64,000 nucleotides of DNA. Source: Herbaspirillum sp. alder98 (GTDB taxonomy: Bacteria; Pseudomonadota; Gammaproteobacteria; Burkholderiales; Burkholderiaceae_D). Under the pieces are notes generated by a model that saw only the letters and a program-made list of their open reading frames with translations, was not told the origin of the DNA and did not search any database. Of the stretch, positions 498-20,690 are shown one piece after another (position 1 is the first letter of the stretch; the number at the start of each line of letters is the position of its first letter). Location of the stretch: contig NZ_JAIUCY010000015.1 in assembly GCF_020179755.1 (NCBI RefSeq), positions 1 to 64,000 on the forward strand, in the 5' to 3' direction. The position numbers were made by a program, and so were the translations under genes.

Positions 498-1610
498 TCA
501 GGCTGCCGCGTACGCCGGCAACCCCTGATCGCGCACATGCGGAATGTCCAGCTGGCGCAGCTTGCGGTACAGCGATGCGCGGCACATCCCGAGTTGCCGC
601 GACGCGGCCGAGATGTTCCAGCGACTGCCGACCAGCGCATTGATCACCCGATTGCGTTCGTCCCGCAACGCGTCACCGGGCACCCTGACCACCACAGCTT
701 GTGGCTGCAGCGGACGGGCGGGAGCGGCGAGAGCGGATGCTGCCGTCTCGCCGGCCATGGATTGCATCAATTCTTCCGGCAGGTCATGCAGCTCGATCCG
801 TGCGCCGTTCATCACGGCGCAGCTATAACGCACCACCGCATGCATCTGACGCAGGTTGCCGGGCCAGGCATAGGCCAGCATGCGCTGCAGCGCAACCGGC
901 GCGATCGGCGCTTGCGCGGCCTCTTCGGCATCGTCGAGCTGCAATTCGTCGGCGATCATCTGCATGACCAGGCGTCGGCGATCAGTGCGCTCGCGCAACG
1001 ACGGCAAGCGCAATACGCCGCCGGCGATACGGTAATAAAGATCCTCGCGGAAACGTCCGTCGGCGACCAGCGCCTTGAGGTCCTGGTGGGTGGCACAGAT
1101 CAGCTGCAGGTCGACCGGCACCGGGCGCATCGCACCCAGCGGAATCACCTCGCGTTCGGATAGCACCCGCAACAAGCGCGTCTGCAGTGAAAACGGCATG
1201 TCGCCGATTTCATCCAGGAACAAGGTGCCGCCATCGGCTTGTTGAACCTTGCCCTTCATGCCGCCCGGCAAGGCGCCCGAAAACGCGCCCTTGCAATAAC
1301 CGAACAGTTCGCTCTCGGCCAGGCTCTCGGGAATCGAGGCGCAGTTGACCGCCACCCATGCCGCTGCGCGACGGGCGCTATAGGCATGCAATGCACGTGA
1401 CAGATATTCCTTGCCGGTGCCGGTTTCACCCAGGATCAATACCGGGATGCCGCGATCGATCAGGCGTTTGCCGCGTTCGATCAGGTCGAACATGATCGGG
1501 TCATCACCCGACAACTGGTCGATGCCGCGATAAGCGCAAGAAGCTGCGGGGGAAGAGGGTCGTGCGGTCCTGACGTTGGTCAAAGGGTGTTCTACCGTCT
1601 GTGTCGGCAT
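498..1610 (-). CDS. Sigma-54-dependent activator with AAA+ and Fis-type HTH domains but no sensor domain
   Basis: A bacterial enhancer-binding protein of 370 residues, related to the C-terminal half of AcoR-type regulators. Walker A GETGTGKE lies at 61-68, the sigma-54 contact loop GAFSGA at 108-113 (consensus GAFTGA), Walker B GGTLFLDEIGD at 127-137 and a Fis-type helix-turn-helix at about 332-352. Only about 26 residues precede the AAA+ domain, so there is no GAF, PAS, V4R or receiver module; the architecture resembles PspF. The ATG at 1610 is chosen because AGGAG precedes it; an upstream in-frame ATG at 1808 would run into the divergent LysR gene. It probably drives the two sigma-54 promoters near 7.4 and 7.8 kb. 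How it senses a signal is unknown. Confidence 0.9.
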   Translation of the reverse strand: MPTQTVEHPLTNVRTARPSSPAASCAYRGIDQLSGDDPIMFDLIERGKRLIDRGIPVLILGETGTGKEYLSRALHAYSARRAAAWVAVNCASIPESLAESELFGYCKGAFSGALPGGMKGKVQQADGGTLFLDEIGDMPFSLQTRLLRVLSEREVIPLGAMRPVPVDLQLICATHQDLKALVADGRFREDLYYRIAGGVLRLPSLRERTDRRRLVMQMIADELQLDDAEEAAQAPIAPVALQRMLAYAWPGNLRQMHAVVRYSCAVMNGARIELHDLPEELMQSMAGETAASALAAPARPLQPQAVVVRVPGDALRDERNRVINALVGSRWNISAASRQLGMCRASLYRKLRQLDIPHVRDQGLPAYAAA

Positions 1611-1785: not shown

Positions 1786-2688
1786 ATGATCGAATTGAGA
1801 CACCTCACTTATTTCCGCACCGTAGCAGAAACATTGCATTTCGGACGCGCTGCGGAGCTGTTGCATATCTCGCAACCACCGCTCACACGGCAGATTGCAG
1901 CGCTCGAGAAGGAGCTCGGCGCACAATTGTTCGACCGCAGCAAACGGGCCATCCAGCTGACGCCGGCCGGCAAATATTTTTATCGCGACACCACAGAAAT
2001 TTTCAAGGCACTGGAGCGCGCCAAGCGCAATGCCGCCTCATCGAGCACCGGCAAAAGCGGCGCATTGCGGGTCGGCTTCATGATGTCGTCGGCCTACAAC
2101 ATCCTGCCATCGGTCACGCGGCACTATTCGGCCGCCTATCCCGAGGTCGACATGCGGCTGACCGAATACGTGCCCAACCTGCTGGCGACCGACATCGAGG
2201 ATGAGAAGGTCGATGTCGGCGTGATGTACCGCCCGGAAGACTGCACCCGCCTGGACAGCCATACCATCTACGCCGAACCGTTGCTGGCAGTGTTGCCGCG
2301 CGACCATCGCCTGGCCGGGCAGGCGGCCATTTCGGTGGCGCAACTGGCCGATGATCCCTTCATCAGCATTCCGCGCCCGATTGCGCCGGTGGTGTTCGAC
2401 ATCATCGTCAGCCACTGCCGGGCCAATGGCTTTCGCCCGACCATCCGGCTCGAGGCCAACCTGCAGCAGACCATCGTCAACCTGGTCGGCGAAGGCCTGG
2501 GGGTGGCGCTGGTGCCGACCTCGATGCAAGCGATGCACCTGGACACCACGGTGTTCAAGCCCCTCATCAATGCGCCGATGGTCGAGGTAGCCGTGATCTG
2601 GAACCGCGAAAACAGCAACCCCTGCATCAGGACCTTTGCCGATACGGCAGTGGAGGTCTGGCGCAAGCTGCGGCCGCTGGCGTCATAG
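1786..2688 (+). CDS. LysR-family regulator, CatR/BenM-like
   Basis: 300 residues. The N-terminal winged helix-turn-helix reads FGRAAELLHISQPPLTRQ, and the effector-binding domain follows from about residue 90. The FGRAAELLHISQPPLTRQI form resembles the CatR/BenM/CbnR branch that responds to aromatic or related carboxylates, which suits its place in a catabolic island. It is divergent from the sigma-54 activator. The stop codon TAG (2686-2688) is made of the first bases of a short inverted-repeat element, and the gene converges on a dehydrogenase gene whose stop is the other end of the same element. Its target genes cannot be named from sequence alone. Confidence 0.9.
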   Translation: MIELRHLTYFRTVAETLHFGRAAELLHISQPPLTRQIAALEKELGAQLFDRSKRAIQLTPAGKYFYRDTTEIFKALERAKRNAASSSTGKSGALRVGFMMSSAYNILPSVTRHYSAAYPEVDMRLTEYVPNLLATDIEDEKVDVGVMYRPEDCTRLDSHTIYAEPLLAVLPRDHRLAGQAAISVAQLADDPFISIPRPIAPVVFDIIVSHCRANGFRPTIRLEANLQQTIVNLVGEGLGVALVPTSMQAMHLDTTVFKPLINAPMVEVAVIWNRENSNPCIRTFADTAVEVWRKLRPLAS

Positions 2689-2720
2689 GGCCTGCTCACA
2701 TTAAATCTGAACAGGCCCTA
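2686..2720. repeat. 35-bp inverted-repeat element, short copy of the MITE-like repeat at 33.9 kb
   Basis: It begins TAGGGCCTGCTCACATTAAA and ends AACAGGCCCTA. The outer arms TAGGGCCTG/CAGGCCCTA pair perfectly. The first 24 bases match the left terminal repeat of the element at 33863-34039 with one difference, and the last 11 match a terminal repeat in reverse, so this looks like an internally deleted copy. Its ends provide the TAG stops of both flanking convergent genes. As RNA it can fold into a hairpin with a loop of about 11 bases and may act as a two-way terminator. Confidence 0.75.
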
Positions 2721-3515
2721 GTTACACCGCAACGACAAGCCACCGTCGACGATCAGGTCCAGCCCGGTGATATAGCGGGCATTGTCCGAGGCCAGGAACA
2801 GCGAGGCATGCGCCACATCCCAGGCGTCGCCCATGAAGCCCATCGGGCATTGGGCGTGGCGCTTGGCGCGCATTTCCTCGATGTCGCCACCGTAGGCGGC
2901 CTTGAGCGGTTCACGGATCATCGGCGTATCCATCAAGCCCGGCAGCACGCAATTGGCGCGAATACCCAGCGGCGCATACTGCATCGCCACGTTCTTGGTG
3001 AACGCCAGGATCGCCGCCTTGGTGGCGGTATAACCGAGATAGGGAAAGCCGATCCAGCGCAACGCTGCCAACGACGAGATATTGACGATGGCGCCCCGGC
3101 GCTGCGCCTCCATGATCGGCAACACATACTTGTGGGTCAGGAACAGGCTGGTCTGGTTGACCGCCACCAGCCGGTTCCAGCTTTCCTCGCTGGTCTCGAC
3201 CGGCCCGCCGGTCTCGGCGATGCCGACATTGTTATGCAATACATCGACCCGTCCGAAATGGTCCATGGCGGCTTCGGCGATCGCTTTCACGTCGGCCGAC
3301 TTCGATACGTCGGCAGCCAGCACTTCGCAGATTCCGCCTTCCGAGCGAATGATGTCGCGCGTCTGCTGCGCCGCTTCGATACTGCGATCCACCGCCAGGA
3401 TCCTGCCGCCCTCGCGGGCATACAAAGCCGCTGCCGCCTTGCCGTTGCCCCAGCCTTCACCCACCGAACCGGCGCCGGTGACGATGATGACCTTGTCCTG
3501 CATCTGCTTGTTCAT
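2718..3515 (-). CDS. Short-chain dehydrogenase/reductase
   Basis: 265 residues, classical SDR size. It has the cofactor-binding VTGAGSVGEGWGNGKAAA, in which a short insertion expands the TGxxxGxG turn. It also has the HNNVG motif, a Ser in NISSLAA and the catalytic YTATK. It probably oxidises a secondary alcohol or hydroxyacyl-CoA with NAD(P)+. It is the last gene of the operon dctP-dctQM-SDR-SDR and lies nine bases after the other dehydrogenase. Its stop codon is formed by the end of the 35-bp inverted repeat; without that element the frame would continue antisense into the LysR gene, so the C-terminus may have been trimmed by insertion. The substrate is unknown. Confidence 0.9.
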   Translation of the reverse strand: MNKQMQDKVIIVTGAGSVGEGWGNGKAAAALYAREGGRILAVDRSIEAAQQTRDIIRSEGGICEVLAADVSKSADVKAIAEAAMDHFGRVDVLHNNVGIAETGGPVETSEESWNRLVAVNQTSLFLTHKYVLPIMEAQRRGAIVNISSLAALRWIGFPYLGYTATKAAILAFTKNVAMQYAPLGIRANCVLPGLMDTPMIREPLKAAYGGDIEEMRAKRHAQCPMGFMGDAWDVAHASLFLASDNARYITGLDLIVDGGLSLRCN

Positions 3516-3524
3516 GTGGGCTCC

Positions 3525-4295
3525 TCAGATGCTCAATACGCCGCCGGCGACGAAACCGCCATCGACCGGAATCACGTGGCCGGTGATATAGGACGACTCG
3601 TCGCCCGCCAGGAAACTGACCGCGCTGGCGATCTCGTCGGTGCTGCCGTAGCGGCGCATCGGCACCAGCCGGTAATAACTTTCGCGGGTGGCATCGGAAT
3701 GCAGCGCCTGCGTCATCGGCGTGTCCACCGGACCGGGCGCGACGCTGTTGACGGTGATGCCGTGCTCGGCCAGTTCGATCGCCATCTGCCGCGTCAGGCC
3801 GATCACGGCCGCCTTCGAGGTGCCATAGGCGGTGCGCCCGGCGCCGGCGCGAATGCCCGAGATGGACGAGATGTTGATGATGCGTCCCCACTTGTGCCTG
3901 AGCATCAGGCGCGCGGCATGCTGCCCGGCGACCAGCACGCCGGTGACGTTGATGTTGATGGTCTTCTGCCAGGTATCGACGGGAAAATCGAGGAACGACA
4001 CGGTGTTGGCAATGCCGGCATTGTTGACCAGCACATCGCAACGACCGTAGTCGCGATCGAGGTCCGCGAAGGCCTGCGCGATCGACTCCGGATTGCCCAC
4101 GTCCATGCGCAGGGCCGCGGCGCGATGGCCTTGTGCCTCGAGCGCGGCGGCCGTGGCCTGGGCGGCGTCGAGGTTGATGTCGGCGACCACCACGGTGTAA
4201 CCCCGCGCGGCCAACTGGCTGCTGATGGCCGCGCCAATGCCCATGGCTCCGCCCGTCACGAGCGCCACGCGGGCGCCGCTATCGCTTTGATTCAT
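3525..4295 (-). CDS. Short-chain dehydrogenase/reductase, FabG-like
   Basis: 256 residues. VTGGAMGIGAA binds the nucleotide, NNAG stabilises the fold, and Ser in NISSISG with YGTSK forms the catalytic set. The C-terminal YITGHVIPVDGGF is typical of 3-oxoacyl reductase-like members. The start at 4295 follows a GGAGA ribosome site; an upstream in-frame ATG (4502) would overlap the transporter gene. It is second to last in the TRAP operon. In context it would interconvert hydroxy and keto groups on the imported carboxylate or its CoA ester. The exact substrate is not deducible. Confidence 0.9.
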   Translation of the reverse strand: MNQSDSGARVALVTGGAMGIGAAISSQLAARGYTVVVADINLDAAQATAAALEAQGHRAAALRMDVGNPESIAQAFADLDRDYGRCDVLVNNAGIANTVSFLDFPVDTWQKTININVTGVLVAGQHAARLMLRHKWGRIINISSISGIRAGAGRTAYGTSKAAVIGLTRQMAIELAEHGITVNSVAPGPVDTPMTQALHSDATRESYYRLVPMRRYGSTDEIASAVSFLAGDESSYITGHVIPVDGGFVAGGVLSI

Positions 4296-4371
4296 GTTGT
4301 CTCCGAGGATGTGGGCGGCCCCGGTGAATGGAGGGGCCGCCGCTTTTGAAGTGCTAGCTAGGCAAGATAGA

Positions 4372-6252
4372 TCAGAGGAAGCCGATGGAAATCCATGGCA
4401 CGAAGGCCACCACCAGCAACGCCACCACGAGCGCCGCCAGGTAACCCCATACGCGATTGAACACGCCGTCCGGCGACACCTTGCCGATGGCGCAGGCGGC
4501 ATAGAAGCCGACCCCGAACGGTGGCGCGAAGAGCCCGATGCCCATCGCCAGGATCACCACCATCGCGTAGTGCACGTCGTGCACGCCCAGCGAACGGGCG
4601 ACCGGGAACAGCAGTGGACCGAACAGCACGATGGCGGGAATCCCTTCCAGCAGACTGCCCAGCACGATGAAGATGACAATCGTGATCAGCAGGAAACCGA
4701 CACCACCGCCCGGCACGCCCTGCATCAGCGACACCAGCTTGGCCGAGAAGCCCGACTGCGTCAGCGCCCAGGCCATCGACGTGGCCATGCCGATGATCAG
4801 CAGGATCGCGCCCGACAGCGCCGCCGCTTCGATCAGCATCGGATACAGGCGCTTGAAGTCGAGGTGCTTCATGAACAGGTGCATCACCAGTCCCACCACG
4901 ATGGTATAGGCCACGCCGATGGTCGCCACTTCGGTCGCGGTGGCCACGCCTTCGATCACCGCCACCCGGATCAGCATCGGCAGCGCCAGCGCAGGAATCG
5001 CCGCGATCAGGGTCTTCATGATCAGCGACAGCGGCGCGCGCTTGACGTCAGGCATCGGTTCGCGACGCGCACGCATCCAGCAGACGACGGCGATAGCGAT
5101 AGTGGCGATGGCCGCCGGCATCAGGCCGCCGATGAACAACGCCGTGATCGACACGCTGCACACTGCGCCGATGGTGATCAGCACCAGGCTCGGTGGAATC
5201 GTTTCGGTCATGGCGCCGGATGAAGACAGCAACGCCACCAGCTCTTCAGGCTTGGAGCCGCGCTTCTTCATCTCGGGGAACAGCGCCGGCGCAATGGCCG
5301 CCATGTCGGCCGCCTTCGAGCCGGAAATACCGGACACCAGGAACATCGCGCCCAGCAATACATATTGCAAGCCGCCCCGCACGTGGCCCAGCAGCGACGC
5401 CATGAAATCGATCAGCGTCTTGGCCAGCCCGCTCATCTCCAGCAGCGAACCCAGCAGCACGAACAGCGGCACCGACAGCAGGATCAGGCTGGACATGCCC
5501 TCGTCCATGCGACTGACCACGATCATCAGCGGCGCATTGGTGGCCAATGCCAGATAGGCCATGGTGGCGGTACCGAAGGCGAAGGCAATCGGAATGCCGC
5601 CAGCCACGCACAATCCGATCAGCACCACGAAGAACACGATCAGGTTGTAGTTGCCCATGGCCAGCAGGGCGGGCTTGGCCAGCCACAGGCCGCCGGCGAT
5701 CAGCGCCACCACCAGCAGCGCCGAACCCAGCAGGCGCAGGGTGGTCACCGATGCCATGCGCGAGACCGCCGCCAGCAGCATCAGGATCGCCCCCACCGGC
5801 AAGGCGCCAGCGCGCAGGCCGTCGGGGATTTCCAGGGCCGGCGTGGTGATGGCCATCTGCTCCACCGCGTGATCCACCGCGGGGTGGATCACCATCAGCA
5901 CGAAGATGCACACCACCAGCGCGGCCACCGTCTCGAGCCAGATACGGCCCTTCTCCGACATCTTGTTGATGATGGCGGTCAGCCGCATGTGCTCACCGCG
6001 ATCCAGCGCCAGCACCGCGCCCAGCATCGACAGCCAGATGAACAGGATCGAGGCCAGTTCATCCGACCAGATCAAGGGATCGTGCAGCGCATAGCGATAG
6101 ATCACGCCGGTCAGCAGGACCACCGTTTCGGCCACCACCAGCGCCGCCGCAGCGGCGCCGACCACGTGCATGACGAGGCGGTTCAGCCCCACCAGCGCAC
6201 GGGCAGCCGGATTCATGTTTACCGGCTCGCGGTAAGTCATTGCAGCTTCCAT
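4372..6252 (-). CDS. TRAP transporter permease, fused small (DctQ) and large (DctM) subunits
   Basis: 626 residues of inner-membrane protein. The first 160 or so residues form a DctQ-like four-helix unit (RYALHDPLIWSDELASILFI), and the rest is a DctM-type permease with GGIPIAFAFGTA, SGSKAADMAAIAPALFPEM and GLFAPPFGVGFYAACAI. It imports a carboxylate driven by an ion gradient, with the binding protein encoded just upstream. GGAGG lies six bases before the ATG at 6252; an ATG three bases earlier is also possible. It is 23 bp downstream of dctP and transcribed with it. Fusion of Q and M is known in the family. Confidence 0.93.
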   Translation of the reverse strand: MEAAMTYREPVNMNPAARALVGLNRLVMHVVGAAAAALVVAETVVLLTGVIYRYALHDPLIWSDELASILFIWLSMLGAVLALDRGEHMRLTAIINKMSEKGRIWLETVAALVVCIFVLMVIHPAVDHAVEQMAITTPALEIPDGLRAGALPVGAILMLLAAVSRMASVTTLRLLGSALLVVALIAGGLWLAKPALLAMGNYNLIVFFVVLIGLCVAGGIPIAFAFGTATMAYLALATNAPLMIVVSRMDEGMSSLILLSVPLFVLLGSLLEMSGLAKTLIDFMASLLGHVRGGLQYVLLGAMFLVSGISGSKAADMAAIAPALFPEMKKRGSKPEELVALLSSSGAMTETIPPSLVLITIGAVCSVSITALFIGGLMPAAIATIAIAVVCWMRARREPMPDVKRAPLSLIMKTLIAAIPALALPMLIRVAVIEGVATATEVATIGVAYTIVVGLVMHLFMKHLDFKRLYPMLIEAAALSGAILLIIGMATSMAWALTQSGFSAKLVSLMQGVPGGGVGFLLITIVIFIVLGSLLEGIPAIVLFGPLLFPVARSLGVHDVHYAMVVILAMGIGLFAPPFGVGFYAACAIGKVSPDGVFNRVWGYLAALVVALLVVAFVPWISIGFL

Positions 6253-6275
6253 CATCAACCTCCAGCGATGTCGTT

Positions 6276-7310
6276 TCAGGCCAGCTTGCCGGTGTACTTC
6301 TCCAGCAGGGCCCATGGCTCGTCACCGAACTTCTTGTGCCATTCGGCATAGAAACCGGCGCTGCGCAGCTTGGCGCGGAACGATTCGTTGTCGGTATCGT
6401 TGAAGGTCAATCCCTTGCCCTTCATTTCGCCGACCAGCGAATCATTGAGCTTCTTGACGTCGCCGCGCTGGTTCAGGCCGGCTTCGTTGATGTTGCGGGT
6501 CATGATGTCCTGCAGGTCCTTGGGCAGGCGCTCGAAGGACTTCTTGTTGCCGAGGAACCAGAAGCCGTCCCACATGTGGTTGGTGATGGAGCAGAACTTC
6601 TGCACTTCATACAGCTTGGCGGTGGAGATGATGGCCAGCGGGTTCTCTTGTCCTTCGACGATGCGGGTCTGCAGCGCCGAATACACTTCGGCGAAGTTGA
6701 TCGAGGTCGGGGCCGCTTCGACGGCGCGGAACATCGAGGTCCACAGCGGGCTCGGTGGCACCCGCAGCTTCATGCTCTTGAGGTCGTCGGCGGTCTTGAT
6801 CGGGCGCGTGCTGTTGGTGATCTGGCGATAGCCGTTGTCCCAGATCTTCTCGAACGCGAACAGGGTCGACTTGCCTTCGATCTGCTTGCGCACATGCGCG
6901 CCGAGCTCGCCGTCCATGGCGGCCCATACCTGGCTGTAATCCTTGAACGCGAAACCGATGCCGCTGATCTGCGCGGCCGGCACCAGCGTGCCCAGGATCA
7001 GCGGCGACAGGGTAAAGAAATCGATGGCGCCAGCGCGCACCTGCGACAGCATGTCGGTGTCGGTGCCGAGCTGATTGTTAGGGTAGAGCTGCAACTCGAT
7101 GCGACCCTTCGATTCGGCCGAGATCTTGGCCGCCATTTCCTTGGCGCGCGTGTTCATCGGGTGCGACACCGGCAGGTTGTTGGCGTACTTCAGGGTGAAT
7201 TCGGCCGCATGTGCCGAGGTGCCGTACAGGCCGGTCGCGGCGGCTGCCGATGCTACCGATGCAGTCTTCAGAAAATGACGACGCGTGATCTTGCCAGTGG
7301 GTTGTCCCAT
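6276..7310 (-). CDS. TRAP transporter substrate-binding protein (DctP family), Tat-exported
   Basis: 344 residues. The N-terminus carries a twin-arginine signal (TRRHFLKTASVASAAAATG) with probable cleavage after a TSAHA segment near residue 35, so the folded protein acts in the periplasm. The mature part is a DctP-family receptor, with VSHPMNTRAKEMA near its start and KLRVPPSPLWTSMFRA in the middle. It captures the substrate for the fused permease encoded next. The ATG at 7310 follows AGGAG; a longer frame upstream has no signal and runs through the promoter. It is the first gene of the sigma-54 operon reading left. The ligand is unknown; family members bind mostly carboxylates. Confidence 0.93.
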   Translation of the reverse strand: MGQPTGKITRRHFLKTASVASAAAATGLYGTSAHAAEFTLKYANNLPVSHPMNTRAKEMAAKISAESKGRIELQLYPNNQLGTDTDMLSQVRAGAIDFFTLSPLILGTLVPAAQISGIGFAFKDYSQVWAAMDGELGAHVRKQIEGKSTLFAFEKIWDNGYRQITNSTRPIKTADDLKSMKLRVPPSPLWTSMFRAVEAAPTSINFAEVYSALQTRIVEGQENPLAIISTAKLYEVQKFCSITNHMWDGFWFLGNKKSFERLPKDLQDIMTRNINEAGLNQRGDVKKLNDSLVGEMKGKGLTFNDTDNESFRAKLRSAGFYAEWHKKFGDEPWALLEKYTGKLA

Positions 7311-7418
7311 CTGCTTGTCTCCTGTTTGTTTTAATTGAAAATTGCTGAAATCCGGCGCGACTGGATGCGCATGACGCAACCGCCGTTCCTGGTAACAACA
7401 CTGCCTGTACGACTCCAG

Positions 7419-7434
7419 AGCAATTTGAATGCCA
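7419..7434 (-). promoter_or_regulatory. Sigma-54 promoter for the TRAP/dehydrogenase operon
   Basis: On the minus strand it reads TGGCAT-N5-TTGCT, with the invariant GG and GC ten bases apart; it differs from TGGCAC-N5-TTGCW only at the sixth base. It lies about 110 bp upstream of dctP and about 140 bp from the enhancer-like cluster. Confidence 0.7.
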
Positions 7435-7560
7435 TGCCGCCGACGATGCCTCGGCAAGCTGGCGCGCCCTCCCCTGAGATCCGCACTGCGCCTGTATTCT
7501 CTGCGATAACGCAGGAGCAGCACAAGAGCCGCCGACGACATTTGAAGCGGCCGCCGCGGA

Positions 7561-7598
7561 TGCGACACCTGTCGCATTTGTGTCGCAGCACTGTCGCA
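7561..7598. promoter_or_regulatory. Enhancer-like cluster of TGTCGCA half-sites
   Basis: A dyad TGCGACA-CC-TGTCGCA (7561-7576) is followed by further TGTCGCA copies starting at 7581 and 7592. The three same-orientation copies begin at 7570, 7581 and 7592, exactly 11 bp apart, so they face the same side of the helix. A weaker TGTCGGA follows at 7612. Position between two sigma-54 promoters makes it the likely binding site of the activator encoded at 498-1610. Confidence 0.65.
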
Positions 7599-7764
7599 CC
7601 GGATGCACACCTGTCGGACTGATTTCATGACGCACTGCAGCGACCGCAGCGCAGCATAAATCGAAGGCGCCATCATGCTATCGTCAGCGCAACGCCCCCG
7701 TCATGCGCCTGCGCGCGATCTTCGCCAGCGGCCACACCGCCGCGTCGGCATCGGCGCGCAGGCG

Positions 7765-7780
7765 TGGCACCGTTTTTGCA
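7765..7780 (+). promoter_or_regulatory. Sigma-54 promoter for the thiolase operon
   Basis: TGGCAC-N5-TTGCA matches the -24/-12 consensus completely. It lies about 85-90 bp upstream of the thiolase ATG and about 200 bp from the half-site cluster. Confidence 0.8.
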
Positions 7781-7872
7781 TTGGGGGTTGTGTTAAACGG
7801 GGCGGGTCGCCTTGATCCGGGCGCGCCGATGCTCCGACCTCAATCGAGTCTCAAGTCTTATAAGGACATCAC

Positions 7873-9048
7873 ATGACTGCATCCTCTCCCTGCATTACCG
7901 GCTGGCACCACTCCCAATTCGGCAAGCTCGACGGCATCGATCCCGAAGTCCTGATCGGCCAGGTCGCCAAGGCCGCCATCGAACACGCAGGACTGCAACC
8001 GGAAGACATCGACTCGGTCCACATCGGCACCTTCAATGCCGGATTCCTGTATCAGGACTTCCCCTCTTCGCTGGTCTTCAACAGCTTGCCGCAATTGCGC
8101 TTCAAGCCCGCCGTGCGGGTCGAGAACGCCTGCGCCACCGGCTCGGCCGCGATCCATTCAGGGCTGCAGTCGATCAAGGCCGGCGAATCGAAGCATGTGC
8201 TGGTGATCGGCTTCGAGAAGATGACCGAGCTGGCCACGCCGCAGGTGGGCGAGGTCTTGCTGAAGGCGTGTTACGCCAAGGAAGAGGCCGGCATCCCCGG
8301 TGGCTTCGCCGGCGTATTCGGCCAGATCGCACAAAGTTATTTCGACCGCTTCGGCGACCAGTCCGATGCGCTGGCGATGATCGCCGCCAAGAACCACAAG
8401 AACGGCATGGCCAATCCGTATGCGCACATGCGCCGCGATTTCGGTTTCGACTTCTGCCGCAATGTGTCCGACAAGAACCCGTTCGTGGCCGGCCCGCTCA
8501 AGCGCACCGACTGCTCGCTGGTGTCGGACGGCGCCGCCGCGCTGGTCTTGAGTGCTGCCGATGTCGCCAAGTCGATGCCACGTGCGGTGCAGTTCCGCGC
8601 GGCGGTGCACATCAATGACTTCCTGCCGCTGTCGCGCCGCGACGCCACCCGTTTCGAAGCCGCCGAGCTGGCCTGGAAGACCGCCCTGGGGCAAGCGCGC
8701 CTGACTCTGGACGACCTGTCGCTGGTGGAGACCCACGACTGCTTCACCGTCGCCGAGCTGCTGGAATACGAAGCGATGGGGCTGGCGCCGCACGGCCAGG
8801 GCGCGCGCGTGATCCTCGATGGCGTCACCGCCAAGGACGGCAAGCTGCCGGTCAATCCGTCGGGCGGCCTCAAGTCGAAGGGCCATCCGGTGGGCGCCAC
8901 CGGGGTCTCGATGCACGTGATGGCGGCCATGCAGGCCGCACACGATGCCGGCGACATGCAGATCGCCAATGCCCGCCACGTCGGCGTATTCAATATGGGC
9001 GGCGCGGCCGTCGCCAACTACGTGAGCATCCTGGAACGCGTGCATTGA
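7873..9048 (+). CDS. Thiolase of the SCP-x (lipid-transfer) type
   Basis: 391 residues. The nucleophilic Cys lies in ENACATGSAAI (about residue 88), the second catalytic motif is HDCFTVAE, and the C-terminal GHPVGATG supplies the active-site His. The usual C-terminal thiolase Cys is replaced in NMGGAAVANY, as in SCP-x thiolases, which use the HDCF cysteine instead. It should cleave or form a 3-oxoacyl-CoA. It is the first gene of the rightward sigma-54 operon, with AAGGA upstream of the ATG. No DUF35 partner, common beside such thiolases, is present; PPC-domain genes follow instead. The substrate is unknown. Confidence 0.9.
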   Translation: MTASSPCITGWHHSQFGKLDGIDPEVLIGQVAKAAIEHAGLQPEDIDSVHIGTFNAGFLYQDFPSSLVFNSLPQLRFKPAVRVENACATGSAAIHSGLQSIKAGESKHVLVIGFEKMTELATPQVGEVLLKACYAKEEAGIPGGFAGVFGQIAQSYFDRFGDQSDALAMIAAKNHKNGMANPYAHMRRDFGFDFCRNVSDKNPFVAGPLKRTDCSLVSDGAAALVLSAADVAKSMPRAVQFRAAVHINDFLPLSRRDATRFEAAELAWKTALGQARLTLDDLSLVETHDCFTVAELLEYEAMGLAPHGQGARVILDGVTAKDGKLPVNPSGGLKSKGHPVGATGVSMHVMAAMQAAHDAGDMQIANARHVGVFNMGGAAVANYVSILERVH

Positions 9049-9139
9049 GCACGGCCACGACGCCGTCCGGACAACGCCGGCGGCGTCGGCCAGAAGAATA
9101 ATTCCAGCCACGCCAAATTCTTAGAGAACGAGTGAGACG

Positions 9140-10738
9140 ATGTTAAAGAAAGTCATGAACCTGGGCCGCCTGCTATCGGATGTGGCGCGCCGCTTTCCCG
9201 ACCAGCCCGGCCTGATCCTCAGCCGCGCCGAGGCCAACGGCGACGACCGCATCGTCACCTGGCGACAGATCAACGACCGGGTCGATGCGCTGGCGCATGC
9301 GCTGGCGTCGCGCGGGGTGGTCAAGGGCGACAAGATGCTGGTCCATTCGCGCAACAACCAGCAGATCTTCGAGAGCGCCTGGGCCGCCTTCAAGCTGGGC
9401 GTGGTGTGGGTCCCCACCAACTTCCGCATCACGCCGCCTGAAGCGGCTTACCTGGGCCAGTCGAGCGGCGCCTCGGTGATGATCTACGACCACGGTTTCA
9501 GCCATTACGTGGATGCGGTCAAGGCTGCCTCGCCGGCCTTGAAGCATGTGGTGGCGCTGCGCGAGCCGCGCGCCGGCGAACTCGATTTCGAGGCGCTGGT
9601 GTCGGACGCCACCGGCGCGGCCTTCGATGAAGTCGAGGTCGATTACGAAGACCCGCTCTGGTTCTTCTATACCTCCGGCACCACCGGACACCCCAAGGCA
9701 GGCATCCTCTCGCATGGCCAGATGGCCTTCGTGGTGACCAATCACCTGGCCGACCTGATGCCGGGCCTGAACCACGAGTCGCGTTCGCTGGTGGTGGCGC
9801 CGCTGTCGCATGGCGCCGGCATCCACGCCGTGATCAACACAGCCCGTGGCGCGGCCAGCATCCTGCTGGCCAGCGAGCGGCTGGTGGTGGAAGAAGCCTG
9901 GCAACTGGTCGAGAAATACCGCGTGGACAACATGTTCACGGTGCCGACCATCGTCAAGATCCTGGTCGAGGATGAATCGGTGGACCGTTACGACCACAGC
10001 TCGCTGAAGCATGTGATCTACGCCGGCGCGCCCATGTACCGGGCCGACCAGGTCTATGCGCTCAAGAAGCTGGGGCGGGTCCTGGTGCAGTATTACGGCC
10101 TGGGCGAAGTGACCGGCAACATCACCTTCCTGCCGCCTTACATGCACCAGGAGGATGACGCCCATCCACAGGCGCGGGTCGGCAGTTGCGGCATGCCGCG
10201 CACCGGCATGGAGATCGCCATCCTCAACGACGACGGCCACAAGCTGGCGCCCTTCGAGACCGGCGAGATCTGCGTGCGCGGGCCAGCCGTATTCATGGGT
10301 TACCACAACAACTCCGAGGCCAATGCCAAGGCTTTCAAGTACGACTGGTTCCATACCGGCGACCTGGGCCATGTCGACCAGGAAGGTTTCCTCTATATCA
10401 CCGGCCGCTCGTCGGACATGTACATCTCGGGTGGCTCCAACGTCTATCCGCGCGAGATCGAAGAAGCGCTGCTGACGCACCCGGCGGTGTCGGAAGTGGC
10501 GGTGCTGGGCGTGCCGGACCCCAAGTGGGGCGAGAGCGGCCTGGCGGTGATCGTCGCCAAGCCCGGCCAGCAGGTCGATGGCGACGCCTTGCTGGCGCAC
10601 CTGGAAGAACGCATCGGCAAGTACAAGTGGCCGCGTCGCTTCGTCTTCTGGGAAACCATGCCCAAGTCGGGCTACGGCAAGATCGTCAAGAAACAGATCA
10701 AGTCACTGCTGGAGGAAAAGGGAGAATATCGTCTATGA
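9140..10738 (+). CDS. AMP-forming acyl-CoA synthetase/ligase
   Basis: 532 residues of the ANL superfamily. The P-loop YTSGTTGHPKAG, the YYGLGEVTGN motif, the hinge region FHTGDLGHVDQEGFLYITGR and the adenylation lysine in MPKSGYGKIVKKQ are all present, so the enzyme looks complete. It would activate a carboxylic acid to its CoA thioester, probably the compound imported by the TRAP system, ahead of cleavage by the thiolase. The gene is 91 bp after the thiolase and overlaps the next gene by ATGA, so it is translationally coupled to it. Chain length or aromatic preference cannot be read. Confidence 0.92.
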   Translation: MLKKVMNLGRLLSDVARRFPDQPGLILSRAEANGDDRIVTWRQINDRVDALAHALASRGVVKGDKMLVHSRNNQQIFESAWAAFKLGVVWVPTNFRITPPEAAYLGQSSGASVMIYDHGFSHYVDAVKAASPALKHVVALREPRAGELDFEALVSDATGAAFDEVEVDYEDPLWFFYTSGTTGHPKAGILSHGQMAFVVTNHLADLMPGLNHESRSLVVAPLSHGAGIHAVINTARGAASILLASERLVVEEAWQLVEKYRVDNMFTVPTIVKILVEDESVDRYDHSSLKHVIYAGAPMYRADQVYALKKLGRVLVQYYGLGEVTGNITFLPPYMHQEDDAHPQARVGSCGMPRTGMEIAILNDDGHKLAPFETGEICVRGPAVFMGYHNNSEANAKAFKYDWFHTGDLGHVDQEGFLYITGRSSDMYISGGSNVYPREIEEALLTHPAVSEVAVLGVPDPKWGESGLAVIVAKPGQQVDGDALLAHLEERIGKYKWPRRFVFWETMPKSGYGKIVKKQIKSLLEEKGEYRL

Positions 10739-11298
10739 AACTGTCGAGCAAACCGGCTGACGGTCACCCCGGCTTCGTCGAAGTGCGCAAGTTTCTTCAT
10801 GCAGGCCAGCCAAGCTATCCGCGCACGCTGGACCTGGAGGCCAATCCGGCCGAAGAACTGCGCATCACGCTGCAACCGGGCACCAGGGTGGGCGACGCCT
10901 TGCGGCGCGTACTGGCCCGCTATGGACAACGCGGCGGGGTCGGTCGCATGTGCGGCGGCACCGCGCGCGCGTTGCACTATCACCGCATCGAGAGCACCCG
11001 CGACGACAATCGTCCCTATGATTACGGCCCACCGTATGTGTTGCAAGGCACGATTACCTTCGTGACCGGCGCCATCACGGTGGGCCAGAACCAGGAAGGC
11101 AAGATCCTTCTGCATTGCCACTCGGGTTTCATCGACGGCGACGGCACCATCCACGGTGGCCATCTGCTGCTCGACACGGTGGAGGTGGGCGACGATCCGC
11201 TCATCATCCGCCTGTGCCTGTTTTCACAAGGCGCCTTCGTCGTCAACAGCGATGAAGAGACGCTATTCAGTCTATTGCATCCGACACCCATGGAATGA
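10735..11298 (+). CDS. PPC/DUF296-domain protein with intact metal-site histidines
   Basis: 187 residues. A PPC domain spans about residues 40-180 and keeps the family's metal-ligand pattern: HCH at 127-129 and GGHL at 141-144, in the context of a DGDG turn. PPC domains form trimers and occur in bacterial single-domain proteins of unknown role and in plant AT-hook proteins. Start ATG overlaps the ligase stop; the stop in turn overlaps the next gene by ATGA. Placement inside a CoA-dependent catabolic operon suggests an enzymatic or regulatory role in that pathway, but no function is established by the sequence. Confidence 0.8.
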   Translation: MKLSSKPADGHPGFVEVRKFLHAGQPSYPRTLDLEANPAEELRITLQPGTRVGDALRRVLARYGQRGGVGRMCGGTARALHYHRIESTRDDNRPYDYGPPYVLQGTITFVTGAITVGQNQEGKILLHCHSGFIDGDGTIHGGHLLLDTVEVGDDPLIIRLCLFSQGAFVVNSDEETLFSLLHPTPME

Positions 11299-11765
11299 TG
11301 ATGACGACCTCGACCATCGCAAACAACACCACCGACATTGATACAGACAACGACATCCAGGTTGAAGAAGGCACCCTCGGCAAGCTGGTGATGGCGCGCC
11401 TGAAACCCAACCAGGACCTGACCGAAAGCGTCGAGGCGCTGTGCCTGCAGCATGGCATGCAACGTGCCATCGTGCGCGGCGCCATCGGCAGCCTGATCGA
11501 TGCCCACCTGCAGTATGCGGGCCAGAACGGCGCGCGCCGGATGGAAGTCAATGGCCCCGGCGTAGAGATACTGAATGTCTTCGGCGAGATCGGGTTTACC
11601 GACGCCAAGTCCAATCCCAATCCGCTACAGGGCGTAGTGGCCGACACCGATGGCAAGATCTTTGCCGGGCGTTTCGTGCGCGGCGCCAACCTGTCGTTCA
11701 TCACCATCGAAATCACCTTGCAGGAATGGATTCCGGCCAAGGTGGCCCAGGCGCTTCCGGCCTGA
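11295..11765 (+). CDS. PPC/DUF296-domain protein lacking the metal-site histidines
   Basis: 156 residues; a second PPC domain beginning near residue 26. Where its partner has HxH and GGHL, this protein has LQG (111-113) and AGRF (124-127), so it probably cannot hold the metal. It may be a structural or regulatory partner of the preceding PPC protein, for example in mixed trimers; that is inference. The start is ambiguous among three consecutive ATG codons at 11295-11303; the first overlaps the previous stop. It is the last gene of the rightward operon, and a hairpin terminator follows. Confidence 0.75.
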   Translation: MMMTTSTIANNTTDIDTDNDIQVEEGTLGKLVMARLKPNQDLTESVEALCLQHGMQRAIVRGAIGSLIDAHLQYAGQNGARRMEVNGPGVEILNVFGEIGFTDAKSNPNPLQGVVADTDGKIFAGRFVRGANLSFITIEITLQEWIPAKVAQALPA

Positions 11766-13557: not shown

Positions 13558-14613
13558 ATGCAGACCAAGAACAAATTCGCCATCACCACGCTTGCCATCG
13601 GCGCCGCACTGGCCTGTGGCCAGGCTGCCGCACAATCGAACGTGACCATCTACGGTATCGTCGATTCCGGCCTGGAAGTGATCAACCACGCATCGGCCGC
13701 CGGTTCGGTGTCGCGCATCAGCTCGGGCAACCTGTCGGGTTCGCGCATCGGTTTTCGCGGCACCGAAGATCTGGGTGGCGGCCTGCAGGCCGTGTTCGTT
13801 CTCGAGAACGGCTACTCGGTAGACAACGGCACCGCGCTGCAAAGCGGTCGCCTGTTCGGTCGCCAATCCTATGTTGGCCTGCAGGGCAGCTGGGGCAGCC
13901 TGCTGATCGGTCGCCAGAACAGCCTCATGCTGGAATGGATGAGCAAGTACAACACCATGGACAACGCCACCTGGTCGTCCAAGGTGCATGATGCGGCCTT
14001 CTCGGACCGTATCGACAATGCCGTCAAGTACACCGGCCGGGTCGGCGCCTTCGAACTGTCGACCTACTACAGCACCGGCTTCGACAGCACCAAGGGCGGC
14101 GAAGTGGCCGGCAGCAGCGCCGCCGGTCGCGAATACGGTTTCGGCGGCCAGTACCTGGGCGAAGGCTTCAAGGCCGGCCTGGTGTATGACCAGAAGAATG
14201 GCCAGACCGCAGCGCTGTCGGGCAACACCGACCGTCACCTGACCTTCGGCGCACGCTACAAGATCGGCGCGGCGGAAGTGCTGGGTGGCTACCTGGTGCG
14301 CCGTCAGAAGACCGCGCCGGCCACCAGCATCCGCTCCGATGTCAGCTGGATCGGCATGAGCTACCAGGTCAGCCAGCCGCTGCAACTGTCGGCGTCGCTG
14401 TACCACACCGATGTGAAGCGCTCGAACCAGGATCCGACCTCGATCATCACCATGGTCAAGTATTCGCTGTCCAAGCGCACCGACCTGTACCTGATCAATT
14501 CGTATGTGTGGAACAAGAACGGCTCGAACCTGGGCGTGAACGGTTTCGGTACCGATATCGCCGCCGGCTCGAACCAGTTCGGCACCATGGCGGGTATCCG
14601 CCACACGTTCTGA
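13558..14613 (+). CDS. Outer-membrane porin (Gram-negative porin family)
   Basis: 351 residues. A Sec signal peptide (TTLAIGAALACGQAAA) is cleaved near residue 25, the mature protein opens with QSNVTIYGIVDSGLEV, and the last residue is Phe in GIRHTF, as outer-membrane barrel insertion requires. These features are those of the trimeric betaproteobacterial porins. The gene lies only ten bases upstream of an ABC-transporter ATPase gene on the same strand, so this porin probably admits the transporter's substrate across the outer membrane. A dyad lies in its leader. Confidence 0.93.
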   Translation: MQTKNKFAITTLAIGAALACGQAAAQSNVTIYGIVDSGLEVINHASAAGSVSRISSGNLSGSRIGFRGTEDLGGGLQAVFVLENGYSVDNGTALQSGRLFGRQSYVGLQGSWGSLLIGRQNSLMLEWMSKYNTMDNATWSSKVHDAAFSDRIDNAVKYTGRVGAFELSTYYSTGFDSTKGGEVAGSSAAGREYGFGGQYLGEGFKAGLVYDQKNGQTAALSGNTDRHLTFGARYKIGAAEVLGGYLVRRQKTAPATSIRSDVSWIGMSYQVSQPLQLSASLYHTDVKRSNQDPTSIITMVKYSLSKRTDLYLINSYVWNKNGSNLGVNGFGTDIAAGSNQFGTMAGIRHTF

Positions 14614-14623
14614 TCGGCACGGC

Positions 14624-15679
14624 ATGAGCAAACCTGGCGAACGCGTGCAGCGCGGCACGGCCATCAGCGTCGAGCGGCTGGTCCAGCGCTTTGGCGACAA
14701 TACCGTGCTGGCCGGTATCGACCTGCAACTTGAGGCAGGCCAGGTGCTGGCCCTGCTGGGTCCGTCGGGCTGCGGCAAGACCACGCTGCTCAAGCTGCTG
14801 GCTGGCTTGTTGCCGGTGCAGCCCGGCATGGGCAGCATCCGCTTCGGGCACAACGTGGTGGCCGGTGACGGCCGCTTCGTGCCGCCCGAAGGACGGGCGC
14901 TGGGCATGGTGTTTCAGGACTACGCCCTGTGGCCGCACATGACGGTCGGCCGCAATGTGTCGTTCGCGCTCGAAATGCGCGGCGTGTCGCGCCGCGCGGC
15001 GGCCCCCAATGTGGCGCAGGCGCTGGAGACGGTCGGCCTGGCCGGCTTCGAGCAGCGCCAGCCATCCAGCCTGTCGGGTGGGCAGCAGCAACGGGTCGCA
15101 CTGGCGCGCGCCATCGTGGCGCGGCCCCAGGTGCTGCTGTTCGACGAGCCCTTGTCCAATCTCGACCGCGAACTGCGCGAGAACCTGTGCCACGAGATCG
15201 GCGTGCTGCTGCGCCAGATGGGCACCACCGCGGTCTACGTCACGCACGACCAGGACGAAGCCTTTGCCCTGGCCGACCAGGTCGCCGTCATGCATGGCGG
15301 CCGGATTCACCAACTGGCCACGCCCGAACAATTGATGGCCACCCCGGCCAGCACCCTGGTGGCTGATTTTCTCAAGCTGGGCACGCTGCTGTCGGCGGCC
15401 CACGTGCCACCGGCATGGCATGCGGCACTGCCGGCCGGCGGCGCCGATCAGCACCTCTTCATTCCACACGCGGCGCTGTCGCTGGCGGCGACCCAGGGCG
15501 ACCTGCGCGGCACGGTGATGCACCAGCGCCTGCGCCAGGGTCGGCTGCTGACGCAGATCGTGGCCAGCGAAGCGCCACAGGGCCTGATGCTGGCCACCGA
15601 CAGCCGCCTCGACACCGGTCGCACGGTCGAACTCGCGCTCGACTGGCAGCGCCTGCGCTGGCTGCCGCAGGCAGCCTGA
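14624..15679 (+). CDS. ABC transporter ATP-binding protein, FbpC/PotA-like
   Basis: 351 residues. Walker A GPSGCGKTT, Q-loop FQDYALW, signature LSGGQQQR, Walker B VLLFDEP and the switch His in YVTHDQDEA are all intact. After about residue 240 there is a C-terminal OB-like regulatory extension, as in iron, polyamine, sulfate and phosphonate importers. It energises uptake with the downstream binding protein and double-domain permease. It sits ten bases after the porin gene and 29 bases before the binding-protein gene. The substrate is not fixed; ferric iron or 2-aminoethylphosphonate-type compounds are the usual cargos of such sets. Confidence 0.9.
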   Translation: MSKPGERVQRGTAISVERLVQRFGDNTVLAGIDLQLEAGQVLALLGPSGCGKTTLLKLLAGLLPVQPGMGSIRFGHNVVAGDGRFVPPEGRALGMVFQDYALWPHMTVGRNVSFALEMRGVSRRAAAPNVAQALETVGLAGFEQRQPSSLSGGQQQRVALARAIVARPQVLLFDEPLSNLDRELRENLCHEIGVLLRQMGTTAVYVTHDQDEAFALADQVAVMHGGRIHQLATPEQLMATPASTLVADFLKLGTLLSAAHVPPAWHAALPAGGADQHLFIPHAALSLAATQGDLRGTVMHQRLRQGRLLTQIVASEAPQGLMLATDSRLDTGRTVELALDWQRLRWLPQAA

Positions 15680-15708
15680 TCGTACCTCTCCCTTATTCGG
15701 AAACCTCC

Positions 15709-16680
15709 ATGCTGAACCATAAAAAACCGCTGAAGATAGCGGCCGCCGTCGCGGCCCTTTTCCTTTCGCACAACGCCCTGGCACTGACCGTCTACAGCGC
15801 CGGTCCCGGCAAGCTGATCGATACGCTCGCAGCGGACTTCAAGAAGGCCACCGGCATCCAGGTCGATGTGTTCCAGGCCGATACCGGCAAGGTCATGGCG
15901 CGCCTGCAGGCCGAAGCCAGCAACCCGCGCGCCGATGTCGTCATCTCGGCCTCGTGGGACAGCGCCCAGGATCTCGACCGCCGTGGCTGGCTGCTGCCGT
16001 TCCAGAGCGCCAACGCGGCCCAGGTGCCCGCCCAGTACAAGCAACCGGCCTATGTCGCACAAGCCTTGTCGGCGCTGTCGATCGTCTGGAACAGCAAGAG
16101 CGGCACGCCGCGTCCGGCCGACTGGAGCGACCTGACCCTGCCGGCCTTCAAGGACAAGGTCACCATGCCGGACCCGGCCCAGTCGGGCGCTTCGCTGGAT
16201 CTGCTGTCCGGCCTGCAAAGCCGCCAGAACGAGCGCGCCTGGCAATTGTTCAAGGCCTTGAAGGAGAACGGCATGATCATCGCCGGCCCCAATGCGCAAG
16301 CCATGAACCCGGTGCTGCAGGGTTCGCGCGCGGCGGTCTTCGGGGCGGTCGATTATGTGGCGCTGGGCAATGTGGCCAAGGGTGAAAGCGTCGAGGTGAT
16401 CTTCCCCCGGAGCGGCACCGTGATCGCGCCGCGCCCGATGATGATCCTCAAGTCGAGCAAGACCCCCGACGACGCCCGCAAGTTCATCGACTATGTGCTG
16501 TCGCCACAGGGCCAGGCGCGGGTGGCCGAGGCTTACCTGATTCCGGCACGGGCCGACATTGCCATCCAGCGCCCGGCGCTGAAAGACATCAAGCTCCTGC
16601 CGGAGTCGCCGGACGCGGCCAATGTTGCCTCGCGCGCGGCGCTGCTGCATCGCTTCTCGTCGCTGTTCGGGCGCAAGTAA
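15709..16680 (+). CDS. ABC transporter periplasmic binding protein (FbpA/ThiB/PhnS-like)
   Basis: 323 residues with a Sec signal (IAAAVAALFLSHNALA) cleaved near residue 25. The mature start LTVYSAGPGKLIDTLAADF and the middle segment IVWNSKSGTPRPADWSDL mark the type 2 family that includes iron, thiamine and aminoethylphosphonate receptors. Only one Tyr (GAVDYVAL) is present where FbpA has a paired-tyrosine iron site, which weakens an iron role. The ATG at 15709 is preceded by a weak purine-poor site, but the signal peptide fixes it. The gene lies between the ATPase and permease genes. Confidence 0.87.
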   Translation: MLNHKKPLKIAAAVAALFLSHNALALTVYSAGPGKLIDTLAADFKKATGIQVDVFQADTGKVMARLQAEASNPRADVVISASWDSAQDLDRRGWLLPFQSANAAQVPAQYKQPAYVAQALSALSIVWNSKSGTPRPADWSDLTLPAFKDKVTMPDPAQSGASLDLLSGLQSRQNERAWQLFKALKENGMIIAGPNAQAMNPVLQGSRAAVFGAVDYVALGNVAKGESVEVIFPRSGTVIAPRPMMILKSSKTPDDARKFIDYVLSPQGQARVAEAYLIPARADIAIQRPALKDIKLLPESPDAANVASRAALLHRFSSLFGRK

Positions 16681-18355: not shown

Positions 18356-19597
18356 TCAGTTGGGCGCCAGGGCGCTATCGATCAGTTCGATCCAGTGCTT
18401 CACCGGCGTGTCGGTGCCTGACTGCAGATGCGTCACGCAGCCGATGTTGCCGCTGACGATCACTTCCGGATTGATCGCGGCCAGATTCCTGAGCTTGTTG
18501 TCGCGTAGCTGATAGGACAGTTCAGGCTGCAGTATCGAGTAAGTACCGGCCGAACCGCAGCACAAATGGCTGTCGGCGCACAGTTGTACATCGACGCCGG
18601 CGGCCCGCAGGATGCCTTCGACCCGGCCCCGGATCTTCTGGCCGTGCTGCAGCGTGCACGGTGGGTGATAGGCCACGCGCGCGCCGGCCGGCGCCCGCAG
18701 CTTCTGCACCAGTTGCTGCTCGAACTCGGGCAGGATTTCGCTGATGTCGCGGGTCAGGTGCGAGATGCGGCGCGCTTTTTCGGCGTAGGCGTGATCGTGC
18801 TGCAACAGGTGCCCGTAATCCTTGACGGTAACCCCGCAACCGGAGGCGTTCATGACGATCGCTTCGGCCTTCACGCCGGCGCTGCCATCCACATAGGGCC
18901 ACCAGGCATCGATGTTGCGCCGCATGTCGTCGAGGCCGCCTTCCTGGTCATTCATGTGAAAACGAATCGCGCCGCAGCAACCGGCCTTGGGCGGCACGAT
19001 CAACTGCACACCCAGCGCATCGAGCACGCGCGCGGTGGCACTGTTGATGTTGGGCGACATCGATGGCTGCACGCAACCTTCCAGCAACAGCATGTGACGC
19101 GCGTGGGATGCGCTCGGCCAGCGACCGGCCGGCTGCGGCTGCGGCACCTTGTTGCGCAACACCGGCGGCAGCCACGCACGCATGGCTTGTCCGACCTTCA
19201 TGGCGGGACGGAAGATCCACTTGCGCGGCAGCGCTTCCTTGAGTGCGGCACGCACCAGCCGTTGCGACAACGGGCGCGGCACCTGCTGCTCGACCACCTT
19301 GCGGCCGATATCGATCAGTCGACCGTATTGCACCCCCGAGGGGCAGGTCGATTCGCAGTTGCGGCAGGTCAGGCAACGGTCGAGATGGGTCTGGGTCGAG
19401 ACCGTGGCGGGCTTGCCTTCGAGCACCTGCTTGATCAGGTAGATGCGTCCGCGCGGGCCATCGAGTTCGTCGCCCAGCAATTGATAGGTGGGACACGTGG
19501 CGGTGCAGAAACCGCAATGCACGCAACTGCGCAGGATGGCGTCGGCCTCTTGCCCCTCGGCGGTGTCGCGAATGAAATCGGCTAGGTTGGTTTGCAT
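18356..19597 (-). CDS. glcF: Glycolate oxidase iron-sulfur subunit
   Basis: 413 residues. Two 4Fe-4S clusters are bound by CVHCGFCTATCP (about residues 25-36) and CLTCRNCESTCP (about 75-86). The C-terminal half has two cysteine-rich CCG-type domains (PPKAGCCGAIRFH and ADSHLCCGSAGTY). With GlcD and GlcE it oxidises glycolate to glyoxylate at the inner membrane and passes electrons to the respiratory chain. It is the last gene of glcDEF, 32 bp after glcE. No glcG, glcB or GntR-type glcC is visible nearby. Confidence 0.95.
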   Translation of the reverse strand: MQTNLADFIRDTAEGQEADAILRSCVHCGFCTATCPTYQLLGDELDGPRGRIYLIKQVLEGKPATVSTQTHLDRCLTCRNCESTCPSGVQYGRLIDIGRKVVEQQVPRPLSQRLVRAALKEALPRKWIFRPAMKVGQAMRAWLPPVLRNKVPQPQPAGRWPSASHARHMLLLEGCVQPSMSPNINSATARVLDALGVQLIVPPKAGCCGAIRFHMNDQEGGLDDMRRNIDAWWPYVDGSAGVKAEAIVMNASGCGVTVKDYGHLLQHDHAYAEKARRISHLTRDISEILPEFEQQLVQKLRAPAGARVAYHPPCTLQHGQKIRGRVEGILRAAGVDVQLCADSHLCCGSAGTYSILQPELSYQLRDNKLRNLAAINPEVIVSGNIGCVTHLQSGTDTPVKHWIELIDSALAPN

Positions 19598-19629
19598 GTT
19601 CTGTTCTGTTGGCTGGTGACGATGCCTGG

Positions 19630-20688: not shown

Positions 20689-20690
20689 CG

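Follow-up and report, generated by a model that had tools for sequence, protein, structure and literature searches.

We analysed a 64,000-nucleotide window of Herbaspirillum sp. alder98 (contig NZ_JAIUCY010000015.1, positions 1 to 64,000) and focused on eight genes arranged in two divergent arms at 2718-11765 (Table 1). The minus arm encodes a tripartite ATP-independent periplasmic (TRAP) uptake system and two short-chain dehydrogenases (SDRs). The plus arm encodes an SCP-x-type thiolase, an acyl-CoA ligase and two proteins of the PF03479 (PPC or DUF296) family, here called PCC1 and PCC2. This gene content and its coordinates agree with a first-pass annotation of the sequence, which had proposed a bidirectional sigma-54 regulon for the CoA-dependent catabolism of a carboxylate. 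The span assigned to that regulon, 2718-11765, takes in the module and its control sites; the gene for the likely activator, at 498-1610, lies outside it. As had also been stated, the eight arm proteins gave no Pfam match to the acyl-CoA dehydrogenase or enoyl-CoA hydratase families.

Table 1. Features of the divergent module and its surroundings, with positions in the window.
Feature	Position	Strand	Remarks
Sigma-54 enhancer-binding protein	498-1610	-	Pfam Sigma54_activat (PF00158) 1.6e-60, HTH_8 3.2e-08; start placed by inspection
LysR-type regulator	1786-2688	+	best NCBIfam match AlsR, below cut-off; possible co-regulator
SDR2, short-chain dehydrogenase	2718-3515	-	YxxxK; unusual Gly motif GAGSVGEGWG; putative hydroxy-acid dehydrogenase
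SDR1, short-chain dehydrogenase	3525-4295	-	FabG/butanediol-dehydrogenase-like; YxxxK present
Fused TRAP permease DctQM	4372-6255	-	DctQ 4e-28, DctM 3e-101; start after GGAGG, placed by inspection
TRAP solute-binding protein DctP	6276-7310	-	TAT-type signal; about 65% identity to PDB 4OAN
-24/-12 element TGGCATTCAAATTGCT	7419-7434	-	1 mismatch; placed to drive dctP-dctQM-SDR1-SDR2
Putative upstream activator site	7561-7598		palindrome and two further half-sites
-24/-12 element TGGCACCGTTTTTGCA	7765-7780	+	0 mismatches; placed to drive thiolase-ligase-PCC1-PCC2
SCP2/SCP-x-type thiolase	7873-9048	+	NF005704 666 bits (cut-off 412); Cys in ACATG, HDCF, GHP
Acyl-CoA ligase	9140-10738	+	NF005676 884 bits (cut-off 774)
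PCC1, PF03479 protein	10735-11298	+	three conserved His: H127, H129, H143
PCC2, PF03479 partner	11295-11765	+	lacks the His motif; in many relatives fused to PCC1
Glycolate oxidase genes	18356-22178	-	GlcF 18356-19597, GlcD 20691-22178; downstream of the module

The two opposed −24/−12 elements between the arms were scored against TGGCAC-N5-TTGCW with the GG and GC kept, and they deviate from it at no position and at one position, as the first-pass annotation had reported. The half-site cluster that it had placed between them contains a palindrome at 7561-7576 in which TGCGACA and TGTCGCA are separated by CC (exact form TGCGACACCTGTCGCA). Half-sites lie at 7561 (inverted), 7570, 7581 and 7592, the last three spaced by 11 bp, and TGTCGCA recurs at 7581 and 7592. 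Taken alone, single −24/−12 matches are weak evidence: six sites with at most one mismatch were observed in the window against 3.6 expected, a number equalled in 13 of 100 shuffles, and when the intergenic stretch was shuffled 2000 times by mononucleotide, 23 of the shuffled sequences held at least one site. We consider the control sites credible because they are conserved across relatives, not from single-site statistics. When 24 sequences were compared, the plus site (with zero or one mismatch), the minus site (with one) and the exact palindrome were all kept in 22 of 22 loci with a divergent region, namely the window itself, the 20 loci L005-L024 and L057 (genome G178). The plus site carries one mismatch in seven of these loci, and the intergenic sequence around the three sites varies in large part. 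Locus L026 stands outside the count, as its sequence does not reach the divergent region. At L025 the arms lie on one strand and none of the sites was found upstream of the thiolase. A one-mismatch palindrome (2388) near a one-mismatch −24/−12 element (2304, minus) occurs elsewhere in L025, at 2304-2403, and may control another operon at the locus of this one-strand module copy.

Within the 5.34-Mb genome the exact palindrome occurs only once, with three further places at one mismatch. Measured from its centre, the GG of the −24 motif lies about 136 bp away in the minus element and about 198 bp away in the plus element, which are ordinary enhancer distances, and RpoN is encoded in the genome. 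The palindrome was not found in 19 loci of other lineages that were scanned, where −24/−12 matches were few and scattered (one exact match falls inside the dctP frame of L101); sigma-54 control therefore looks Herbaspirillum-specific. Judging from these sequences, sigma-54 control appears to be the Herbaspirillum-type arrangement of a wider module.

The protein encoded at 498-1610 has an AAA+ domain with a GAFSGA loop, a lid and a Fis-type helix-turn-helix, and Pfam found no sensor domain in it. It is the probable activator of both arms. Its gene adjoins lysR in all seven Herbaspirillum loci that have lysR and more than 190 bp of sequence beyond it. Neither gene was seen in L019 and L023, in which about 1.6 kb beyond SDR2 is covered, and neither lies near SDR2 in L057, from a genome that encodes a 76% activator ortholog about 7 kb from its SDR2.

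The union of the two arms holds well beyond this genome. Both are present in Herbaspirillum-type loci wherever the available sequence reaches them, and they also co-occur in other Beta- and Alphaproteobacteria, so that the outcome named in the first-pass annotation as counting against its reading, arms not found together in other genomes, did not arise; in some relatives the thiolase is split off or the PCC pair is missing. At L025 a single strand carries all eight genes, which argues for a unit independent of the shared intergenic region. Four loci of other Burkholderiales (L052, L054, L055 and L056) combine the thiolase, ligase and PCC pair with a TRAP system, with SDR1 in three of the four, and carry an IclR-type gene (three loci) or a LysR gene (one). 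One catabolic module is accompanied by IclR or LysR regulators in other lineages, where regulators were identified, and by apparent bidirectional sigma-54 control in a single genus. The same gene set is annotated on plasmids of Variovorax, Roseomonas and Terrarubrum, the last with a single DUF296 gene of fused length that matches a PCC1-PCC2 fusion. Genes of the sampled genomes (G and L handles) were taken from a simple open-frame picker, so that wrong starts or merged frames are possible.

A PCC1 profile was run on 398 sampled genomes of the phylum and matched 34, with strong matches (E below 1e-14) in 25. Each of these 25 genomes has the ligase in the PCC1 cluster at one locus, adjacent in 24; in the remaining one (G133) an SDR and the thiolase stand between ligase and PCC1. 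The CoA ligase and the two PCC proteins are therefore the most constant part of the module. These counts come from 36 PCC1 rows, 27 of them strong (a first copy in 25 cases and a second, fused copy in the other two, L027 and L174), with the nine weakest (E 6e-8 and weaker) excluded; the five of those nine that have loci (L156-L160) show no ligase or other module gene there. No ligase lies near the second fused copies, which belong to the window's genome and to G560, and the fused copy L053 of G178 is alike. Two of these fused paralogs (L027 9308-10237 and L053 8264-9130), from two Herbaspirillum genomes, share a common neighbourhood that is distant from any module-type ligase, and G178 has such a copy but no PCC gene in its cluster.

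The thiolase was detected in 24 of the 25 strong-PCC1 genomes, often far from the PCC genes, and G444 had none at E 1e-100. It occurs in 42 genomes of a 374-genome sample, so that about half of the carriers are without a strong PCC1; judging from the genome handles, we took this sample to cover every strong-PCC1 genome but G749, G751 and G758. By genus, the thiolase is present in 11 of 12 strong-PCC1 genera versus 13 of 186 others, a way of counting that controls phylogeny only in part. DctP at E 1e-100 was found in 23 of 398 genomes, 17 of which are strong-PCC1 genomes, with both searches taken, again from the handles, to cover the same set. Because the L057 cluster is present without PCC genes and the TRAP systems of some cores are unrelated to this one, a family of substrates, rather than a single compound, is probably handled by the module.

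The ligase and PCC1 genes overlap by 4 bp, as do those of PCC1 and PCC2. Against a PF03479 cut-off of 25 bits, PCC1 scored 26.2 (within a longer open frame) and PCC2 60.1, and two PCC1 relatives fell below it at 17.8 and 21 bits. The three His residues are kept in 53 of 53 distinct PCC1 sequences versus 0 of 55 PCC2-type partners, distinct meaning deduplicated by a 60-residue stretch. The first pattern used, H-x-H...GGH, matched 56 of 63 PCC1-type rows; after seeing that the seven exceptions have another residue before GH, we relaxed it to GH, and no PCC2-type row matched under either version. The predicted PCC1 model, confident in its core only, resembles acetolactate decarboxylase (ALDC) in fold, and Pfam at the thresholds used listed PF03479 and no ALDC family for the PCC proteins. 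From sequence and model, PCC1 and PCC2 look like one metalloenzyme pair, with PCC1 the putative catalytic subunit, rather than DNA-binding proteins. Overall, the analysis confirms the first-pass observation and supports its interpretation in a sharpened form.

The first clue to the substrate is DctP. Among solved binding proteins, 4OAN (RPB_2686, a TRAP protein of Rhodopseudomonas palustris, a different genus from that of the window protein) is far closer to it than any other. The predicted DctP model was poor (pLDDT 51) and served only for reading the titles of related structure entries. The 4OAN structure is reported to have been modelled with 2-acetolactate. The consulted passage of a review of TRAP ligands includes 2-acetolactate and pantoate/D-erythronate and does not name 4OAN (PMC5812351).

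Neighbouring genes provide further clues. The window's genome encodes a second DctP/DctQM (77%/95%) at L099 4307-10614, where a kinase of DUF1537 type, a RuBisCO-like protein and a member of the glyoxalase family are also encoded. Proteins of this locus resemble OiaK and OiaX, with scores well under the curated cut-offs, and the locus is likely an apionate-type branched sugar-acid operon. A third DctP/DctQM (51-58%) lies at L100 5669-11295 with split transketolase-like subunits and an SDR, and a LtnD relative is found at the edge of that locus. In two genomes of one genus (G215 and G017), relatives of the thiolase and ligase (59-61%) are in one run with genes for L-threonate dehydrogenase, D-erythronate dehydrogenase and 3-oxo-tetronate kinase, all above cut-off, 3-oxo-tetronate 4-phosphate decarboxylase (below cut-off) and a GlcD-like oxidase, without a PCC gene. 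OtnK and OtnI are encoded near the PCC cluster of G133; within the module's own span no Otn protein was found, the OtnK kinase and the OtnC decarboxylase included. Acetolactate-synthase-family genes of two subfamilies occur beside distant module copies (L055 4169-5920 and L121 11733-13274). Taken together, the 4OAN-like DctP, the oxo-isoapionate-type genes and the threonate/erythronate genes point, by sequence similarity, to 2-hydroxy-3-oxo C4 acids. The implied compounds are 2-hydroxy-3-oxo-butanoate derivatives, and thiolysis of their CoA esters would give glycolyl-, lactoyl- or acetyl-CoA. These clues fit the suggestion in the first-pass annotation of a substrate that bears a hydroxy or keto group from the start.

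Of the 20 loci L005-L024, 18 have glycolate oxidase genes behind the module, as does L057; the sequences of L014 and L017 end too soon for them, and that of L007 reaches only GlcF. They are absent at L025 and at L026, where 10 kb downstream is covered. We propose that glycolate oxidase processes a product of the module. In the window, porin, ABC ATPase and binding-protein-like genes (13558-16680) lie between dctA and glcF, unlike several relatives in which glcF is close behind dctA or PCC2. A LysR-type gene and a second GlcD-like protein (22319-24637) are found beside the glycolate oxidase genes.

Our preferred reading, which we hold at slightly less than even odds (about 0.47), is that of a substrate-inducible, sigma-54-controlled module that breaks down a tetronate-type hydroxy acid, possibly a branched one, by a CoA-thiolytic route. 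The cytosolic enhancer-binding protein would bind the 7561-7598 cluster and activate the two opposed sigma-54 promoters. The compound imported by the TRAP system would be a small C4 acid of the tetronate class, either 2,3-dihydroxy or 2-hydroxy-3-oxo, and may have a methyl or hydroxymethyl branch at C2, as in acids of the acetolactate or apionate type. The SDRs would oxidise it to a 2-hydroxy-3-oxo acid, the ligase would form the CoA thioester, and the SCP2-type thiolase would cut between C2 and C3 to yield two small acyl-CoAs, whose identity (glycolyl-, lactoyl- or acetyl-CoA) would follow from the branch; the adjacent glycolate oxidase may carry glycolate or lactate onward. PCC1 and PCC2 would form one metalloenzyme of acetolactate-decarboxylase-like fold, which might act at the ligase step, for example in a ketol rearrangement or epimerisation of the 2-hydroxy-3-oxo unit. 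The sequences themselves show the genes, the conserved control sites and linkage, the His asymmetry and the similarity in fold of a predicted model, from which inducibility, the identity of the activator, the class of substrate, the order of steps, the products and the PCC reaction are inferred. That the whole forms an undescribed CoA-thiolytic (branched) tetronate route, with a heteromeric PCC1/PCC2 metalloenzyme acting on the CoA-bound 2-hydroxy-3-oxo unit, is a tentative proposal with the odds against it.

The enzymes could instead degrade an aryl or longer 3-hydroxy or 3-keto acid: after ligation, an SDR would oxidise the 3-hydroxyacyl-CoA, and β-keto thiolysis would release acetyl-CoA together with an aryl- or acyl-CoA, much as phenylpropanoid side chains or benzylsuccinate-type compounds are broken down. 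Below E 1e-70 the ligase has just two solved relatives, a feruloyl-CoA synthetase and a fatty-acyl-CoA synthase, which fit such chemistry; SDR1 scores with BbsD, and the thiolase with BbsB, though far under the cut-off (129 bits against 750). The ligase and SDR similarities are generic, however. With that BbsB score, and with no DUF35-type protein found in the module by Pfam, the thiolase does not qualify as BbsAB-type. Since DctP is far nearer 4OAN than other solved binding proteins and several relatives sit beside tetronate or apionate-type genes, we regard aryl or longer acids as unlikely substrates. The 4OAN-like DctP would suit acetolactate or acetoin-type overflow as the substrate, with the ALDC-like PCC1 and its partner as an acetolactate-decarboxylase analogue, the SDRs as acetoin/butanediol dehydrogenases and an AlsR-like, if sub-threshold, LysR protein; the acetolactate-synthase-family genes near two distant clusters also speak for it. 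Decarboxylation, however, would deprive the ligase, which is the most constant partner, of its acid, and those two genes encode thiamine pyrophosphate enzymes of different families, so that their presence looks incidental. This explanation is quite improbable.

The other two alternatives concern the PCC pair itself. DUF35 partners accompany other SCP2-type thiolases, and no DUF35 protein was found among ten Pfam-scanned proteins, which would leave room for the pair as a non-catalytic or thiolase-assisting subunit. Against such a role, which we think has little chance of being correct, PCC stays with the ligase where the thiolase sits elsewhere (four genomes; five g241 loci, L161-L165), and the three His residues are invariant. 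Database names such as 'PPC domain-containing DNA-binding protein' suggest regulators, a function made very improbable by the conserved metal-type His triad, the overlap of the gene with that of the ligase and the dedicated regulators already present.

If the tetronate-type reading is correct, bacterial 'PPC DNA-binding' (DUF296) proteins would have a catalytic role, one that our searches did not find described, and the paired PCC/DUF296 domain, usually named DNA-binding, a testable function. C4 sugar acids would have a new route that, unlike the Otn/Oia pathways, does without phosphorylation. The main interest here lies in the PCC pair and in the proposed CoA-thiolytic tetronate-type route. 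Isoprenoid-derived 2-methyltetronates are further branched C4 candidates that we suggest. In an open-licence library, the only literature source searched, we found no description of a DUF296-thiolase link, of RPB_2686 or of an apionate route; papers combining DUF296 with acyl-CoA were unrelated by their titles, and those retrieved for 4OAN were irrelevant. Herbaspirillum seropedicae was screened in PMC12543098, in whose main text the words DUF296 and TRAP do not appear. Elsewhere in the window, a 1658-amino acid open frame (34037-39013) has a CheA-like stretch below the family cut-off, and an adjoining 727-amino acid frame (39024-41207) had no NCBIfam match at E 1e-60.

The proposed pathway resembles several known systems in part. 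With the L-threonate/D-erythronate route (LtnD/DenD, OtnI, OtnK, OtnC) it would have in common the substrate class and a 3-oxo acid intermediate, and genes of that route are co-located with relatives of the module's thiolase and ligase or of the PCC cluster. That route, judged by family names, phosphorylates and decarboxylates, whereas the module would use a CoA ligase and thiolase instead. The apionate/3-oxo-isoapionate system (OiaK, OiaX), whose chemistry involves a branched 2-hydroxy-3-oxo C4 acid like the proposed substrate, is represented in the same genome beside the paralogous DctP/DctQM, with the reservation on scores given above, but the module has no RuBisCO-like protein or kinase. 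SCP2-type thiolases are defined by the nucleophile Cys, HDCF and GHP, all of which the module enzyme has along with the family score (NF005704; BbsB is another such thiolase), and its closest solved chain is the 3-ketoacyl-CoA thiolase 4bi9; it differs in having, in place of a DUF35 partner, a coupled PCC pair beside the ligase. Finally, the predicted fold of PCC1 looks similar to that of ALDC and PPC/AF0104 proteins, and its His triad is of the kind through which those proteins bind metal. Pfam, however, places the PCC proteins in PF03479, and PCC1 is paired with a His-less partner and a CoA ligase.

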